Assembly (NCBI RefSeq): GCF_030406045.1
Contig: NZ_CP128988.1
Location: forward strand, 186,001-250,000
DNA length: 64,000 bases
Reading direction: 5' to 3'
Source of the DNA: Thiohalobacter sp. IOR34
GTDB taxonomy: Bacteria; Pseudomonadota; Gammaproteobacteria; Thiohalobacterales; Thiohalobacteraceae
The notes beneath the pieces were generated by a model. It saw nothing but the letters and a program-made list of their open reading frames with translations, was not told the origin of the DNA and ran no database searches. A program made the translations under genes and the position numbers. The stretch's first letter is position 1, and each line of letters starts with the position of its first letter. Below, piece by piece: positions 6,263 through 62,292 of this stretch.

Positions 6263-6283
6263 TAGCCCGGATATTGCATCGAA
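6263..6283 (+). repeat. Single end of the TAGCCCGG...MITE-like family
   Basis: TAGCCCGGATATTGCATC matches the left terminal repeat of the complete elements at 61699-61950 and 62042-62292 at all but one position. No matching right end is found before pilQ, so this is a remnant. It lies 34 bp from a copy of the large palindrome, the same pairing seen elsewhere in the window. Confidence 0.7.
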
Positions 6284-6316
6284 CCCCGGATGATGGCGTG
6301 CCTAGACCCGCCGGGG

Positions 6317-6387
6317 ATCGCGGCCTGGAGGCCGCTCCTACGGGGCATGGTGGCACAATGTGGTAGGAGCGGCCTCCAGGCCGCGAT
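6317..6387. repeat. REP-like palindrome, copy 1
   Basis: Perfect inverted repeat with 25-bp arms (6317-6341 and 6363-6387; core CGCGGCCTGGAGGCCGCTCC) and a 21-nt loop containing GGGGCATGGTGGCAC. It lies between aroK and pilQ. The same arms and a recognisable loop recur near 14.8, 20.8, 34.6 and 60.9 kb, in both orientations and always between genes. Confidence 0.9.
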
Positions 6388-6420
6388 TGGCGTGATGTTA
6401 TTACCCGACAACCAAATATG

Positions 6421-14125: not shown

Positions 14126-14761
14126 ATGGCAAAGGGCGGCCCATCCACACGTGATCGGCAGATGCGGCTGCGCATCGCCCAGGAGGCGGCGCGGCTGATC
14201 GCCACCGAGGGGGTGCGCGATTTCCTGGTCGCCAAGCGCAAGGCGGCGGCCCGGCTCGGCGCGCCCGACACCCACAACCTGCCGCGCAACACCGAGGTCG
14301 AGGCCGAACTCGGCGCCTACCAGCGGCTGTTCCAGGCGGCCAGCCAGCCGCAGCGACTGCGCAGGCTGCGCGAGGCGGCGCTGGCGGCGATGCGCTTCTT
14401 CGCGGACTTCTCGCCGCGCCTCACCGGTTCGGTGTTGAGCGGCACCGCCGGGGCGCATTCCGACGTCAATCTGCATCTGTTCGCCGACACCCCGGAGGCG
14501 GTCATCCTGCAGTTGATCGATGCCAATATCCCCTTCGAGGATGATGAGCGGTGTTTCCGCTTCGGTCGTGGCGAGGAGAGCGAGAGTCTGCCGACGCTGC
14601 GTTTCCTGGCCGACGACATCAGCATCGAACTGGTGATCTTCCCCGGCAGCGGCCTGCGCCAGGCGCCGCGCAGTCCGCTCGACGGCCGGCCGATGGAACG
14701 GGCCAATGCCGCTCGGGTCGAGGCCCTGCTGGCCGGCGGGGAACAGTGCCTGTTCGATTGA
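14126..14761 (+). CDS. Putative nucleotidyltransferase-fold protein, conserved hypothetical
   Basis: A soluble 211-residue protein. The N-terminal half is helical and basic (RIAQEAARLIATEGVRDFL, KRKAAARLG), followed by an HNLPRNTEVEAEL segment. The C-terminal half resembles a minimal polymerase-beta-type nucleotidyltransferase: TGSVLSGTAGAHSDVNLHLF reads as the Gly-Ser plus Asp-x-Asp strand, with DDISIELVIF as a possible third acidic strand. The second catalytic Asp is Asn here (DVN), so activity is doubtful. It begins 20 bp after mrcA and may be cotranscribed with it. The fold assignment is inference from motif spacing; no substrate is suggested. Confidence 0.6.
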   Translation: MAKGGPSTRDRQMRLRIAQEAARLIATEGVRDFLVAKRKAAARLGAPDTHNLPRNTEVEAELGAYQRLFQAASQPQRLRRLREAALAAMRFFADFSPRLTGSVLSGTAGAHSDVNLHLFADTPEAVILQLIDANIPFEDDERCFRFGRGEESESLPTLRFLADDISIELVIFPGSGLRQAPRSPLDGRPMERANAARVEALLAGGEQCLFD

Positions 14762-14806
14762 TTCCGGGTTTTCTGCACCGAACCCTGGCGACAGGAACAC
14801 CACCCG

Positions 14807-14880
14807 ATCGCGGCCTGGAGGCCGCTCCTACAAGGGCACGGCGGCGCGATTTGCTGTAGGAGCGGCCTCCAGGCCGCGAT
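14807..14880. repeat. REP-like palindrome, copy 2
   Basis: Arms as in copy 1 (CGCGGCCTGGAGGCCGCTCC core) around a more diverged loop (AAGGGCACGGCGGCGCG). It lies between the convergent ends of the nucleotidyltransferase-like gene and the malic enzyme gene. Unlike the other copies, no MITE end is visible beside it. Confidence 0.88.
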
Positions 14881-20752: not shown

Positions 20753-20821
20753 ATCGCGGCCTGGAGGCCGCTCCTACCATGGTGCCGCCATGCCCCGTAG
20801 GAGCGGCCTCCAGGCCGCGAT
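20753..20821. repeat. REP-like palindrome, copy 3
   Basis: Arms as in copy 1; its loop reads as the reverse complement of the usual GGGGCATGGCGGCAC loop, so it is inserted in the opposite orientation. It starts 14 bp after the rimO stop, between two convergent genes. Confidence 0.9.
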
Positions 20822-20848
20822 GGGGCAGGCAGGATGTCCAAAATATCG

Positions 20849-20862
20849 AATATCCGGGCCTA
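20849..20862 (-). repeat. Remnant right end of the MITE-like family
   Basis: AATATCCGGGCCTA resembles the right terminal repeat AATATCCGGGCTA with one inserted C. It lies 27 bp from palindrome copy 3, again pairing the two repeat types. Confidence 0.45.
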
Positions 20863-20869
20863 GGAGGGA

Positions 20870-33910: not shown

Positions 33911-34027
33911 GTCCTCGTCTTCCGCAGCCAGGTGTGTGGCACGAAGGCATGCGGGGGCGGAAACAAGGACGGAGGCAGGGATTGCAGGACCTGTCGCCGT
34001 GGCACCGCCCTCCGCAATGCCGGCTTT

Positions 34028-34268
34028 CGGCTTCAGGCCGGTCTCCGGGCTCGCGAGCGGGAGTTCAGACTCCCAGAGGCTGTGCCTTCCCGTGCTCGTG
34101 CACAGTGGCGTGATGCAGACCCTTGACTCGCCTACCGTTGCGGGGGCAGCGCCGGCATTGCGCTGGCGAGTGCCAGCACGCACCGGCTTCCCGTTTCATC
34201 CCTCCGGAGGAACCGCCGGGGGGACACCAGAAGCCGGGAATCCTTCAGCTTCGGTGAAAGGATTCCCG
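34028..34268 (-). ncRNA. Cobalamin riboswitch (B12 element) controlling the cob operon
   Basis: Reading the minus strand, the conserved cobalamin-riboswitch boxes occur in order: GGTG, GGATGAAACGGGAAGCCGGTG-type core (34181 to about 34202), CCGGCGCTGCCCCGCAAC, then the B12 box with CACTG (34103-34109 region) and GGGAAGGC (34084-34091), and finally the GGAGACCGGCC arm (34028-34045). A strong upstream hairpin (GGGAATCCTT arms, 34236-34268) precedes the aptamer. B12 binding represses downstream genes in this class. The 34027-33911 stretch up to cobO is the expression platform. Confidence 0.93.
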
Positions 34269-34461: not shown

Positions 34462-34737
34462 TAACCCGGATATTGCACCAAGGCTGCACGCATGATCGGC
34501 GTGCAGGCTGGTAAATGGGGCGGCAACTCGTAACCCGGCTTTGTGCCTGCTCGATTGACTCCGGGCATTGCCCGCCGTGGATCCCCCGATCGCGGCCTGG
34601 AGGCCGCTCCTACGGGGCATGGCGGCACAATATGTTGTCGTAGGAGCGGTCTCCAGGCCGCGATCGAGGCGCAAGGGGTACCGCGCCATCCTGCCACCCC
34701 GGCTCACGGAGCCCGCCTTGGTGCGGTATGCGGGATG
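34462..34737 (+). mobile_element. MITE-like element M5 with nested palindrome
   Basis: The left end TAACCCGGATATTGCACC (34462) and a degenerate right end (CCTTGGTGCGGTATGCGGG, near 34717-34737) enclose about 275 bp. Inside are a segment with GGGCATTGCCCGCCGTGGAT, palindrome copy 4, and AGGCGCAAGGGGTACCGCGCC. The same order, reversed, is found in element M4 at 60.7-61.2 kb, so both are the same composite type. It separates the cobalamin promoter from rdgB. Confidence 0.75.
34589..34664. repeat. REP-like palindrome, copy 4 (inside M5)
   Basis: Arms as in copy 1, the right arm with one change (GGTCTCC for GGCCTCC). The loop is GGGGCATGGCGGCACAATAT plus GTTGTC, shared in reverse by copy 5. Confidence 0.9.
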
Positions 34738-34776
34738 GAGTGTTGGAACGATCGTGTCTTTGAGATAAGCGGTCGG

Positions 34777-58221: not shown

Positions 58222-60678
58222 ATGAGCGAAGCCGATCCCACTACCGAAGCCGCCTCCCAGCCGGCCTGTTTCCATTGCGGCCTGCCGGTGCCCAAGGGAG
58301 CACCCTACCAGGCGGTGATCGACGGCCAGCCCCGGCCGATGTGCTGCCCTGGCTGCCAGGCGGTGGCGGAGAGCATCGTCGCCGCCGGTCTCGGCGATTT
58401 CTACCGCCACCGCGAGGGGCCGGCGCGCACCGTGCAGGAGCTGGTGCCGGAGGCGCTGCGCGAGATGGCGCTGTACGACCAGCCGGAGCTGCAGAAGAGC
58501 TTCGTCCATGCCGAGGCCGGTAGCGTGCGCGAGGCCTCGCTGATCCTCGAGGGCATCACCTGCGCCGCCTGCGTCTGGCTCAACGAGCGCCACGTCGGGG
58601 CCCTGCCAGGGGTACTCAGCTTCCAGGTCAACTATTCCACCCACCGGGCACGGGTGCGCTGGGACGACAGCCGCATCCATCTCAGCGACATCCTCAAGGC
58701 GATCAGTGCCATCGGCTACATCGCCCACCCTTTCGATCCGGGCCGCCAGGAGGCGGTCTACAAGAAGGAGCGGGGTCAGGCCCTGCGCCGGATCGGCGTC
58801 GCCGCGCTGGGGACCATGCAGGTGATGATGATCGCGGTCGGCCTCTACGCCGGCGATTATCAGGGCATGGATCCCGAACTGCGCGAGTTCCTGCGCTGGG
58901 TGAGCCTGCTGATCGCCCTGCCGGTGGTGCTCTATTCGGCCCGGCCCTTCTTCCAGAGTGCCTGGCGCGACCTGCGCCGCCGCCGCCCCGGGATGGACGT
59001 GCCGGTGGCCCTGGCCATCGGCGGCGCCTTCCTGGCCAGCGCCTACAACACCCTGACCGGGGGGGCGGAGGTCTACTACGACTCGGTCACCATGTTCACC
59101 TTCTTCCTGCTCACCGGCCGCTACCTGGAGATGAGCGCCCGCCACCGCGCCGGCCAGGCGGCCGAGGAGCTGGTGCGGCTGATGCCGGCCACCGCCACCC
59201 GCATTGCCGAGGACGGCAGTGAGGAGCGGGTCGCGGCGGTCCAGCTGGAACCGGGCGACCGGGTGCTGGTGCGGCCCGGCGAGACGGTGCCGGCCGACGG
59301 CCGGGTGCTGGAGGGGCAGAGTTCGGTCGACGAGTCGCTGCTCAGCGGTGAGAGCCTGCCCCAGCCCTGCGCCCCGGGCCAGCCGCTGATCGGCGGCACG
59401 GTGAACATCGAGAGTCCGCTGCTGATGCAGGTGGAGAAGGTCGGCGAGGACACCGTGCTTTCCGCCATCGTGCGCCTGCTGGACCGCGCCCAGACCGAGA
59501 AGCCCCGGGTGGCGCGTCTCGCCGACCGGGTGGCCGGCTGGTTCGTCGTCGCCCTGCTGCTGCTGGCCGCGGCGGTGGCCTGGTACTGGTGGCGGACCGA
59601 TCCCGCGCATGCCTTCGCCATCACCCTCTCGGTGCTGGTGGTGACCTGCCCCTGCGCCCTGTCACTGGCCACCCCGGTGGCGGTGACTGCGGCCACCGGC
59701 GCCCTGACCCGGCTCGGCCTGTTGACCACCCGCAGCCATGCCCTGGAGACCCTGGCGCGGGTCAGTCACATGGTCTTCGACAAGACCGGCACCCTTACCG
59801 AGGGCCGCCTGCAGCTGGTCCGGGTGCAACGTCTGGGACAGCTCACCCGGGACCGCTGCCTGGCCATCGCCGCGGCCCTGGAACAGGGCTCGGAGCATCC
59901 CCTGGCACGCGCCCTGGTGCGTGAGAGCGAGGTGCGGCTGGCCGCGCTGGAGGTGCGTGCCGTGCCCGGCGAGGGGGTCGAGGGCGAGGTGCAGGGGCGG
60001 CGTTACCGTATCGGCAGCCGGGAATTCGCCCTCGGCCTCGGCGGCCGCAGCCGGCCGCTGCCGGCCGCTCTGGAAGAGGAGACCGGCACCCTGGTGTTCC
60101 TCGCCGACGGCCGCGGGCTGCTGGCCGTCTTCGTCTTCGAGGACCGGATGCGGCCCGGTGCACAGCAGGCGCTGCAGGCGCTGCGCGAGCTGGGTATCGA
60201 GGTCAGCCTGCTGAGCGGCGACGCGGAGCGCCCGGTGCGGCGGGTGGCCCGGGCCCTGGATATCGAGCATGCGGTCAGCGGGCTCAAGCCGCAGCAGAAG
60301 CTGGCCCATCTGAAGGCGCTGCAGGCGCAGGGGGCGGTGGTCGCCATGGTCGGCGACGGGGTCAACGACGCGCCGGTGCTGGCCGGTGCCCAGGTGTCGA
60401 TCGCCATGGGCGGGGGCACCCAGCTTGCCGCCTCGGCTGCGGACATGGTGCTGCTCTCCGAGCAGCTGCCGCACCTGGCCGACGGCGTGCGCACCGCCCG
60501 GCGCACCCTGAGCGTGATCCGCCAGAACCTGGGCTGGGCCGCAGTCTACAACCTGTGCGCCGTGCCGCTGGCGGTGGCCGGCTGGGTCGCGCCCTGGATG
60601 GCGGCGATCGGCATGTCCCTGAGCTCCCTGCTGGTGGTCCTGAATTCGCTGCGCCTGCGGCGCATCCCCGGCCAGTGA
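58222..60678 (+). CDS. ccoI: Copper-translocating P1B-type ATPase for cbb3 biogenesis
   Basis: Exports Cu+ for insertion into the oxidase. The 818-residue pump has an N-terminal Cys-rich segment (CFHCG, CCPGC), one heavy-metal-associated domain with TCAAC (Cys114, Cys117), eight membrane helices, the CPC metal site (476-478), the phosphorylation motif DKTGT (Asp520), the HP nucleotide motif in SEHPLARA and the hinge [10 protein letters not shown]. It belongs to the FixI/CopA2 group by neighbourhood. Two repeat elements follow before ccoS. Confidence 0.95.
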
Positions 60679-60836
60679 TACACTAGCCCGGATATTGCGC
60701 CGAGGCGGCGCGCATGATCGGAGTGCAGACAGACATACAAGGCCGGGAGGCTCGCAAATGGCTCCTCACGGCGGGGTACGGTTTGTGGCAGGCTCCGTGG
60801 GCCGGGGTGGCAGGATGGCGGGTACCCCTTGCGCCT

Positions 60837-60914
60837 CGAACGCGGCCTGGAGACCACTCCTACGACAACATATTGTGCCGCCATGCTCCGTAGGAGCGGC
60901 CTCCAGGCCGCGAT
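60837..60914. repeat. REP-like palindrome, copy 5 (inside M4)
   Basis: Arms as in copy 1 with substitutions in the left arm (GAGACCAC for GAGGCCGC). The loop is the reverse of copy 4's (GACAACATATTGTGCCGCCA). Confidence 0.88.
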
Positions 60915-60930
60915 GGGGGTTGCCACCAAA

Positions 60931-61005
60931 ATCGCGGCGTGGAGGCCGCTCCTACAGGGTAGGGCGGAACCTCTTGTTTTGTAGGAGCGGTCTCCAGGCC
61001 GCGAT
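60931..61005. repeat. REP-like palindrome, copy 6 (inside M4)
   Basis: Arms as in copy 1 with single changes (GGCGTGG, GGTCTCC). The loop (AGGGTAGGGCGGAACCTC) is diverged. It lies 16 bp from copy 5 in tandem. Confidence 0.88.
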
Positions 61006-61157
61006 CGGGGAGATCCACGGCGGGCAATGCCCGGGGTCAATCGAACAGGCACAAACTGTAACAGGGCACAATCGCTCGCATAGATGATCACTGCCTTGAT
61101 AAATACCGGAAAAATTACGCTTTCAAGGCCGCCTTCGTGCAATATCCGGGCTAGCAG

Positions 61158-61302
61158 GGCAGGCTGTTGAAAAAGTCTCTGGCGAGTGCGAGACAAGGCA
61201 AAAAATGGCGAAAAAGCGCAGTTTACTTGGCCGTAAATGAGCATTTTGAGCCATTTTTTAACGCCGTATCGTGCCGTCAGAGGGTTTTTCAACAGCCTGC
61301 CA
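61158..61302. mobile_element. Second short terminal-inverted-repeat element
   Basis: About 145 bp with perfect 17-bp inverted ends (GGCAGGCTGTTGAAAAA at 61158 and its complement at 61302) and an AT-rich interior, unlike its surroundings. It is unrelated to the M family. Ends of this form resemble insertion-sequence tips, but no transposase is present, so it is a non-autonomous element. It abuts M4 and ends 43 bp before ccoS. Confidence 0.75.
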
Positions 61303-61345: not shown

Positions 61346-61564
61346 ATGGATATCCTCTATCTTCTCATCCCCCTGGCGCTGGTGCTGCTGGTGATCGCGG
61401 TCGCGGCCTTCGTCTGGGCCTCGCGCAGCGGCCAGTTCGAGGATCTCGAAGGGCCGGCCTACCGTATCCTGATGGACGACGACGATCCGCGGATTCCGCG
61501 CAGCGGCCCGGCGGAGGGCGAGTCCGCTGCCGGTGAGGAGGACTTGAAGCCGCCCCGCCCTTAG
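61346..61564 (+). CDS. ccoS: cbb3 oxidase maturation protein CcoS
   Basis: A 72-residue single-helix protein (about 5-28) followed by the CcoS motif SGQFEDLEGPAYRILMDDDD. CcoS is needed for cofactor insertion into the cbb3 oxidase. It is separated from ccoI by 667 bp of repeat elements, whereas the genes are normally close or overlapping. Confidence 0.92.
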   Translation: MDILYLLIPLALVLLVIAVAAFVWASRSGQFEDLEGPAYRILMDDDDPRIPRSGPAEGESAAGEEDLKPPRP

Positions 61565-61608: not shown

Positions 61609-61701
61609 ATGTTTAGCTTCCAGAATTTTCCGGTCGTGATCGTCATTGCGCTGGTGACCCTGGCCTATCTGAGCTTCTTCTCGGTCATCCTGAGCGGCTA
61701 G
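61609..61701 (+). CDS. 30-residue single-helix membrane ORF after ccoS
   Basis: ATG to TAG encodes 30 residues beginning MFSFQNFPVVIVIALVTLAY: one hydrophobic helix (about 7-26) and almost no charge. ACAGGA lies 7 bases before the ATG, and the ORF is 44 bp after ccoS and before the operon terminator. Small single-helix subunits such as CcoM accompany some cbb3 oxidases, so this is a candidate. The stop codon is the first three bases of MITE M2, so the original protein may have been longer. Function unproven. Confidence 0.55.
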   Translation: MFSFQNFPVVIVIALVTLAYLSFFSVILSG

Positions 61702-61950
61702 CCCGGATATTGCACCAAGGCGGCGCGCATGAATGGGGTTCGTGCTGTAATACAGGGACGCCATGGCCATGAAAAAGGCCCCCTGGGCGGGTTACGGTTT
61801 GTGCCTATTCGAGTTCAGACCAAATCTGGCGTCGCATTTTGCCCGATCCCCCTTGAACCATAGCTACGGCTATGCTTCGGCGGGCGATCGAACAAACTGC
61901 TTGGTCAGATTTGCCCTGAAACTCGAATCCTTCGTGCAATATCCGGGCTA
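61699..61950 (+). mobile_element. MITE-like element M2 (complete)
   Basis: 252 bp bounded by TAGCCCGGATATTGCACC and its inverted copy GTGCAATATCCGGGCTA, with TA at each border. The interior has GCGCGCATGAATGGGG, GGGCGGGTTACGGTTTGTGC, a small palindrome ATAGCTACGGCTAT and CTCGAATCCTT before the right end. It has no coding potential. It lies between the 30-codon ORF and the cco terminator. Confidence 0.88.
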
Positions 61951-62041: not shown

Positions 62042-62292
62042 TAACCCGCATATTGCACCAAGGCGGCTGGCATGAATGGGGCTCGAGCTGTCATACAAGG
62101 GCGCCATGACCATGAAAGGCCCGCCTGGGCGGGTTACGGTTTGTGCCTGTTCGATGTCAGGCCGACTCTGGCTGCGCATCCTGGGTGATCCTCCTCAAGC
62201 CATAGCGACGGCTATGACTTTTCGGACGATCACCCAGGCTGCCTTGCCAGCCTCGCCCTGAGCATCGAATCCTTGGTGCAATATCCGGGCTA
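62042..62292 (+). mobile_element. MITE-like element M3 (complete)
   Basis: 251 bp bounded by TAACCCGCATATTGCACC and TTGGTGCAATATCCGGGC plus TA. It is alignable with M2 over its length (CATGAATGGGGCT, GGGCGGGTTACGGTTTGTGC, palindrome ATAGCGACGGCTAT). It lies 69 bp upstream of the binding-protein gene. Confidence 0.88.

Follow-up and report, generated by a model that had tools for sequence, protein, structure and literature searches.

A probable composite non-autonomous transposon in which REPINs take the place of a MITE hairpin

How did a MITE come to carry REP palindromes at its centre, and by what route did such composites spread? The question is raised by M4, a 470-bp repeat in the window, by which we mean the whole 64-kb stretch analysed here (bases 186001-250000 of a single 2,961,281-base contig). 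The stop codon of the P-type ATPase gene of a cbb3-oxidase cluster (58222-60678; HMA and E1-E2 ATPase domains) lies 6 bases before M4, which in turn precedes a FixS/CcoS gene (61346-61564). The initial annotation held that the palindrome had entered a MITE once, that the composite had then spread, and that M4 had later gained a second, tandem palindrome.

Structure of M4 and of its relatives in the window

M4 has what defines a MITE: terminal inverted repeats (TIRs), a length under ~500 bp and no transposase gene. By our own reading of the ORF list, the open reading frames within it are frame-open REP sequence only. The left boundary reads CTAG followed by CCCGGATATTG and the right boundary CAATATCCGGG followed by CTAG; because CTAG is palindromic, these end copies alone are insufficient as proof of a target duplication. 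M4 contains four REPs of the type GTAGGAGCGGCCTCCAGGCCGCGA, arranged as two inverted doublets (two REPINs). Its parts and the related elements of the window are given below; the subfamily names A1, A2 and A3 were coined in this analysis.

60684-61153 (470 bp): M4 composite, a REPIN-in-MITE element without a transposase gene and with near-identical ends
60683-60686: left copy of the 4-bp target CTAG, which is found at both M4 ends
60684-60787, minus strand: M4 left arm with TIR, matching the A1 right half in reverse complement (94%; M4 1-104 = A1 251-148; A1 is a MITE subfamily)
60787-60839, plus strand: CL arm (GGTACC side), the portion of the C composite next to the REPIN
60840-60913: first REPIN of M4 (minus-strand REP 60840-60863, diverged; plus-strand REP 60890-60913)
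60932-61004: second REPIN of M4 (minus-strand REP 60932-60955; plus-strand REP 60981-61004)
61005-61055, plus strand: CR arm fragment, GGGCAATGCCCG side
61041-61153, plus strand: M4 right arm, the right half of MITE subfamily A2 (95%; M4 358-470 = A2 139-251), ending in the TIR
61151-61154: right copy of the 4-bp target CTAG
34462-34745, minus strand: M5, a C composite (CL arm, one REPIN, CR arm), ~26 kb from M4
6263-6420, plus strand: D-type composite (DL arm with TIR, REPIN at 6318-6386, DR arm); right limit approximate
20754-20868: REPIN (20754-20820), DR-like flank and a degenerate MITE end (GAATATCCGGG) ~35 bp off; limits approximate
14745-14879: REPIN (14808-14879) with a CR arm remnant upstream; left limit approximate
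61699-61950, minus strand: bare MITE of subfamily A3, without REP
62042-62292, minus strand: bare MITE of subfamily A3, without REP

We compared M4 with M5. The two elements share the arms CL (GGTACC side) and CR (GGGCAATGCCCG side): M4 104-236 and 298-372 (133 + 75 bases) align to M5 at 95%, and the alignment crosses the boundary between palindrome and MITE on the GGTACC side as well as on the GGGCATTGCCCG side. The earlier observation that the palindrome occupies the same internal position in both elements, ~26 kb apart and in opposite orientation, is thus borne out, the junctions being identical. The palindromes reported near MITE ends at 6.3 and 20.8 kb were also recovered, with a REPIN within ~35-40 bp of the end in each case and a degenerate end at 20.8 kb. 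Unlike the arms of M5, the outer arms of M4 are half-MITEs of 104 bp and 113 bp from two other subfamilies. On the right, CR passes into A2 within ~15 bp of sequence common to both, and among the fetched loci this joint was seen in M4 only; the left joint (A1R-CL) also occurs in loci L009 and L015. Overall, the window holds 11 REP matches (versus 0 in 100 shuffles) and 8 TIR matches (versus a shuffle mean of 0.03), counts that chance does not explain.

A composite transposon bounded by insertion sequences was considered and rejected for M4, whose flanks are the two half-MITEs and not two full IS copies. As a terminator or promoter between ccoI and ccoS, M4 yielded one weak terminator-like match on the minus strand, versus 0.8 expected, and no promoter. 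Its predicted RNA fold is much stronger than that of shuffled sequences (z = -12.9), as expected of any nested inverted repeat. Immediately after M4 lies a second self-inverse repeat (GGCAGGCTGTTGAAAAA...; 61158-61301), so that ccoI and ccoS are separated by two repeats. Near M5, at a distance of ~220 bp, a cobalamin riboswitch (RF00174, 105 bits) occupies 34019-34246 on the minus strand.

MITEs, REPs and their association in the genome

The TIR of the MITE family is CCCGSATATTGCACSAAGG, with ends also written CCCGSATATTGC. Allowing at most 1 mismatch, the pattern matched 213 + 213 times on the two strands of the genome (~210 end pairs), while the reversed-pattern control gave 0. Ordinary MITEs, which we call the A family, are mostly ~251 bp long, carry a central hairpin of their own and fall into at least three subfamilies. 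Identical 4-mers flank 34 of the 54 REP-free complete elements, mostly CTAG, TTAG and CTAA, a count that 0 of 2000 shuffles reached; therefore, the family duplicates a 4-bp YTAR target. Among these 34 bare MITEs, nine have non-palindromic 4-mers, none of them reverse-complementary. Tandem arrangements were seen as well: MITE right ends repeat with a ~247-bp period at L032 (661600-663600), and REPIN composites stand in tandem at L287 (1631405-1632177).

IS701-type elements use YTAR targets, which is why the search for an autonomous partner covered the DDE_5 family in addition to DDE_Tnp_1. The DDE_5 profile had no matches in the genome, and none of the 13 DDE_Tnp_1 loci, which belong to at least three IS groups, is bounded by the MITE TIR.

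With at most 2 mismatches we counted 509 + 502 REPs on the two strands (~1000 copies; reversed-pattern control 0). They are GTAG-tagged, high-copy sequences that form inverted doublets, 97 of which lie among the fetched loci. The genome encodes three Y1 transposases, all above the cut-off of 80 of the REP-associated tyrosine transposase (RAYT) model, the third barely so (82.1). Locating such a transposase had been proposed at the outset, and one (2575348-2575671; NF047646, 149 bits versus the cut-off of 80) indeed lies within a REP array with REPs on both sides. Its relatives are at most 60% identical and mostly from Gammaproteobacteria. The array (L031, G000:C1:2574591-2575963) has a ~93-bp period on either side of the gene and adjoins a bare MITE. 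Other tandem REP arrays have periods of ~128 bp (L103, 584336-584871, assembled from CL and CR pieces), ~92 bp (L142, 381683-382351), ~148 bp (L143, 692103-693158) and ~115 bp (L294, 659124-659607).

We asked how often REPINs lie at MITEs, using 45 loci derived, irrespective of MITEs, from 60 zero-mismatch plus-strand REPs among the matches listed (positions 2479-725133). Bare-MITE homology or a TIR was found within 250 bp at 31 of the 45 loci, a share far higher than that of random stretches (52 of 1000). When any library arm was counted, REPIN-linked arms included, the figures were 35 of 45 and 67 of 1000; the random stretches were drawn from the 64-kb window, and 3 of the 45 REPIN stretches were shorter than intended. 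The 10 sampled loci without a MITE arm could be candidates for mobilisation of the REPIN on its own by a RAYT. Conversely, a REP was present in 9 of 41 complete elements sampled via their TIRs. In the C and D classes the REP dimer lies at a constant place inside the other repeat. Beyond C, REPINs were found with at least three other arm sets (D, E and A-half), whose junctions are unrelated, and in L106 a REPIN occupies the place of the A core.

We also searched other genomes. The M5 query matched 3 of 56, namely its own and two of the same family; in these two only 32-47 bp aligned, confined to the REPIN and the sequence at its edge. None of the 55 other genomes yielded the composite itself. 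The TIR pattern was clearly enriched only in G001, a sister genus (51 + 59), and in G008 (8 + 5); the remaining genomes had 0-4 matches per strand and the controls 0-3. In G001, MITEs built on this plan are numerous; they are 254 bp long, with related ends, a central hairpin and, for several, CTAG on both sides. No REP within 4 mismatches was found in 20 fetched MITE stretches of G001. Because no REP was found in the fetched G001 stretches and no composite in the other genomes searched, MITEs without REPINs are likely the older state.

Junctions and arm combinations of the composites

To the extent that loci were gathered, mostly by similarity and not by an element-by-element scan of the genome, the C class presents a uniform junction. 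Single-arm searches of the genome gave at least 37 matching stretches for CL and at least 40 for CR. Among the fetched loci a recognised REP abuts CL at 24 of 24 junctions and CR at 38 of 40; of the two exceptions, L124 retains a REP in diverged form, and in L015 a short-homology (microhomology) deletion has removed the REPIN. The DL arm abuts a REP in 25 of 26 cases, the exception (L277) resembling the deletion in L015. CL-CR composites with fixed junctions occupy 22 sites, and no empty C MITE, that is, one without a REPIN, was found among the fetched copies. Because of these constant junctions and the lack of an empty C MITE, the C class appears to have captured its REPIN once and then spread as a unit.

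Chimeric forms recur too. L009 and L015, at unrelated sites, have the A1R-CL joint in common as well as the CR arm, and in both the end repeat shows an identical 2-bp lesion (right end CCGGG to CCG). A CR-A joint was found in 8 loci, two of which (L018 and L023) are ~410-bp elements with TIRs. The non-palindromic TTAG stands on both sides in L013, L016 and L018. Judged by sequence, the composite moved as a unit at least sometimes, as the initial annotation had proposed; the shared joint and lesion of L009 and L015, the recurrent CR-A joint and the TTAG copies speak for it. Taken as a group, REPIN-bearing elements have matching target copies in 6 of 22 cases, or 5 of 22 under a second definition, no better than shuffles; in the latter count we judge four of the 22 rows to be artefacts, caused by an internal GGCAATGCCCGG match or the like, which would make it 5 of 18. 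The unmatched copies weaken the case for movement as a unit for most composite copies. We read the poor match as a sign that arms were exchanged once the elements had inserted, with a possible contribution from decay or from ends paired wrongly.

Two further kinds of flank were observed. A third repeat (GCAGCCTGTCGGACTTRGGCGATCGTAGCGAGCAGGGTGGGAGA...) abuts composite ends at CTAG in the right flanks of L010, L019, L057, L101 and L287; it is 97-98% identical between several sites and is possibly another MITE with the same target. In the REPIN-CR elements L280 (1850500-1851400) and L281 (1828800-1829700), a short GC-rich hairpin directly at CTAG forms the other arm, and that side has no TIR.

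The double core of M4 is not peculiar to it. This 177-bp segment recurs in at least six other loci (L009, L010, L011, L012, L013 and L014), so the second tandem palindrome cannot be read as a later gain of M4 alone. In L009 and L014 the core is inverted (94-97% match) while both arms keep their direct orientation. We then classed the arms of the 97 REPINs in the fetched loci. Both arms could be classed for 52, and the other 45 had an unclassed arm or a further REP alongside. The 52 comprised 19 DL-DR, 16 CL-CR and 3 EL-ER pairs (38 in all) and 14 other pairs; since the loci were partly selected by similarity, these shares are not genome frequencies. Mixed pairs include CL-REPIN-DL' (L017, L024) and CR with DL (L057). 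A distance-matrix (Mantel) test of the histories of CL and CR gave r = -0.20 for composites and only 0.10 and 0.07 for the bare controls, and thus had no power. Many composites combine halves of different MITEs, and M4 is one of these chimeras.

Origin of the composites and comparison with known systems

Taken together, these results make it likely that M4 is a composite non-autonomous transposon in which a REPIN has taken over the central place of the MITE hairpin, travels with the MITE ends and is reshuffled by recombination. A MITE would have acquired a GTAG-class REPIN in place of its own hairpin, and a DDE transposase that works on the ends of the MITE would move the REPIN along with it. 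Through recombination among the numerous REP copies, together with microhomology joins in the arms, cores would be inverted, duplicated or deleted and arms exchanged; any two TIR-bearing arms linked by a REPIN would still make a transposable MITE. M4 would be a late product, a C composite that gained a second REPIN and then had its left arm swapped for an A1 half and its right arm for an A2 half. We would extend this only tentatively, with somewhat less than even confidence, to a more general role: the REPIN may serve as an interchangeable central joint and common recombination site, at which half-elements are combined anew into transposons bounded by TIRs. Most REPINs of this genome would then owe their spread to a DDE transposase, as cargo of MITEs, and not to a RAYT of their own.

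Could a RAYT instead have put REPINs repeatedly at a preferred target in MITEs, for example the central hairpin, so that shared junctions reflect target choice? Such insertions fit the presence of REPINs in several unrelated arm sets (C, D, E and A-half), the REPIN in place of the A core in L106, and a genome with a RAYT and ~1000 REPs; REP dimers inside palindromic targets are also described for other bacteria in the pertinent section of PMC3733652. However, repeated targeting is not expected to produce recurring chimeras with the same REPIN junction. It also sits poorly with the failure to find an unoccupied C MITE and with the CL (24 of 24) and CR (38 of 40) junctions, whose exceptions are a REPIN deletion (L015) and a diverged REP (L124), and we regard it as unlikely. 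At the other extreme, one palindrome may have entered one MITE a single time, the intact composite then spreading and M4 later gaining its second palindrome. The junction common to M4, M5 and 20+ other loci agrees with such a history, but it is contradicted genome-wide by the other arm sets, by the joining of arms from different classes, by a double core that at least six further loci possess, inverted in two of them, and by the derivation of the M4 arms from two other MITE subfamilies. It holds only for the C class, and as a full account we give it very little credence. The initial claim of a single entry therefore survives for that class, which has one junction and no empty member, and fails for the genome, where the D, E and A-half arms have unrelated junctions: independent insertion points of the palindrome, named at the outset as what would speak against a single entry, exist at the level of the family but were not found within C.

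The composites might also be what many insertions, deletions and gene conversions have left behind in gaps rich in repeats, a case of ordinary repeat decay and not mobile units. This would account for target copies that match no more often than shuffled pairs, for the many loci with only one intact end (46 of 112 REP clusters) and for the third repeats that abut many composites. Yet the same chimeras are found, with their ends intact, at sites unrelated to one another, and at some of these (L013, L016, L018) the non-palindromic TTAG matches on both sides; decay seems to us an improbable explanation. We retain, as the likeliest, the reading of M4 as a MITE whose hairpin gave way to REPINs. The usual view of REPINs is that a RAYT of their own mobilises them. 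Carriage within a MITE that makes a DDE-type target duplication would give them a second route of spread, and would illustrate how short palindromes allow MITEs of bacteria to evolve by exchange of halves. Given the fixed junctions and the recurrent chimeras, strain comparison could test this.

Several known systems resemble parts of this one. In the relevant passages of PMC3116915 and PMC3733652, GTAG-class REPs and REPINs associated with a RAYT share with ours the GTAG palindrome, the inverted doublet, the high copy number and a REP-flanked RAYT gene; here, by contrast, most sampled REPINs lie at MITE arms and not alone in unique sequence. BIMEs, the REP mosaics treated in part of PMC2817692, have regularly spaced alternating REPs like those of the array around the RAYT gene, whereas our composites are bounded by MITE ends and not by REPs. 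MITEPsy1, as presented in the pertinent part of PMC3189936, is a short, probably IS5-type MITE with a 4-bp duplication at CTAG or YTAA; it is like the MITE described here in its 4-bp target duplication and differs in its end sequence, the lack of a REP and its length (100 bp versus ~250 bp).

The closest parallel comes from the section of PMC3733652 on REP dimers that regularly lie inside one palindromic sequence, as in A. variabilis (GTAG-15), H. neapolitanus (CGTC-1) and T. roseum (GTAG-23). That section states that empty host palindromes were not found in two of the three bacteria and that most REPs are not so associated. The likeness, as far as this account goes, is a dimer at a constant place inside another repeat. 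The hosts in section 7 of PMC3733652 are palindromes for which that section reports no TIR or duplication, whereas here the host is a MITE with end repeats and a YTAR duplication; in addition, compared with the hosts of that section, REP-free members are abundant and arms are exchanged across the REPIN. No description of MITE arms exchanged through REPINs was found in the open-licence literature searched. REP dimers inside other repeats have been published before, and the shuffling of arms is the new part.
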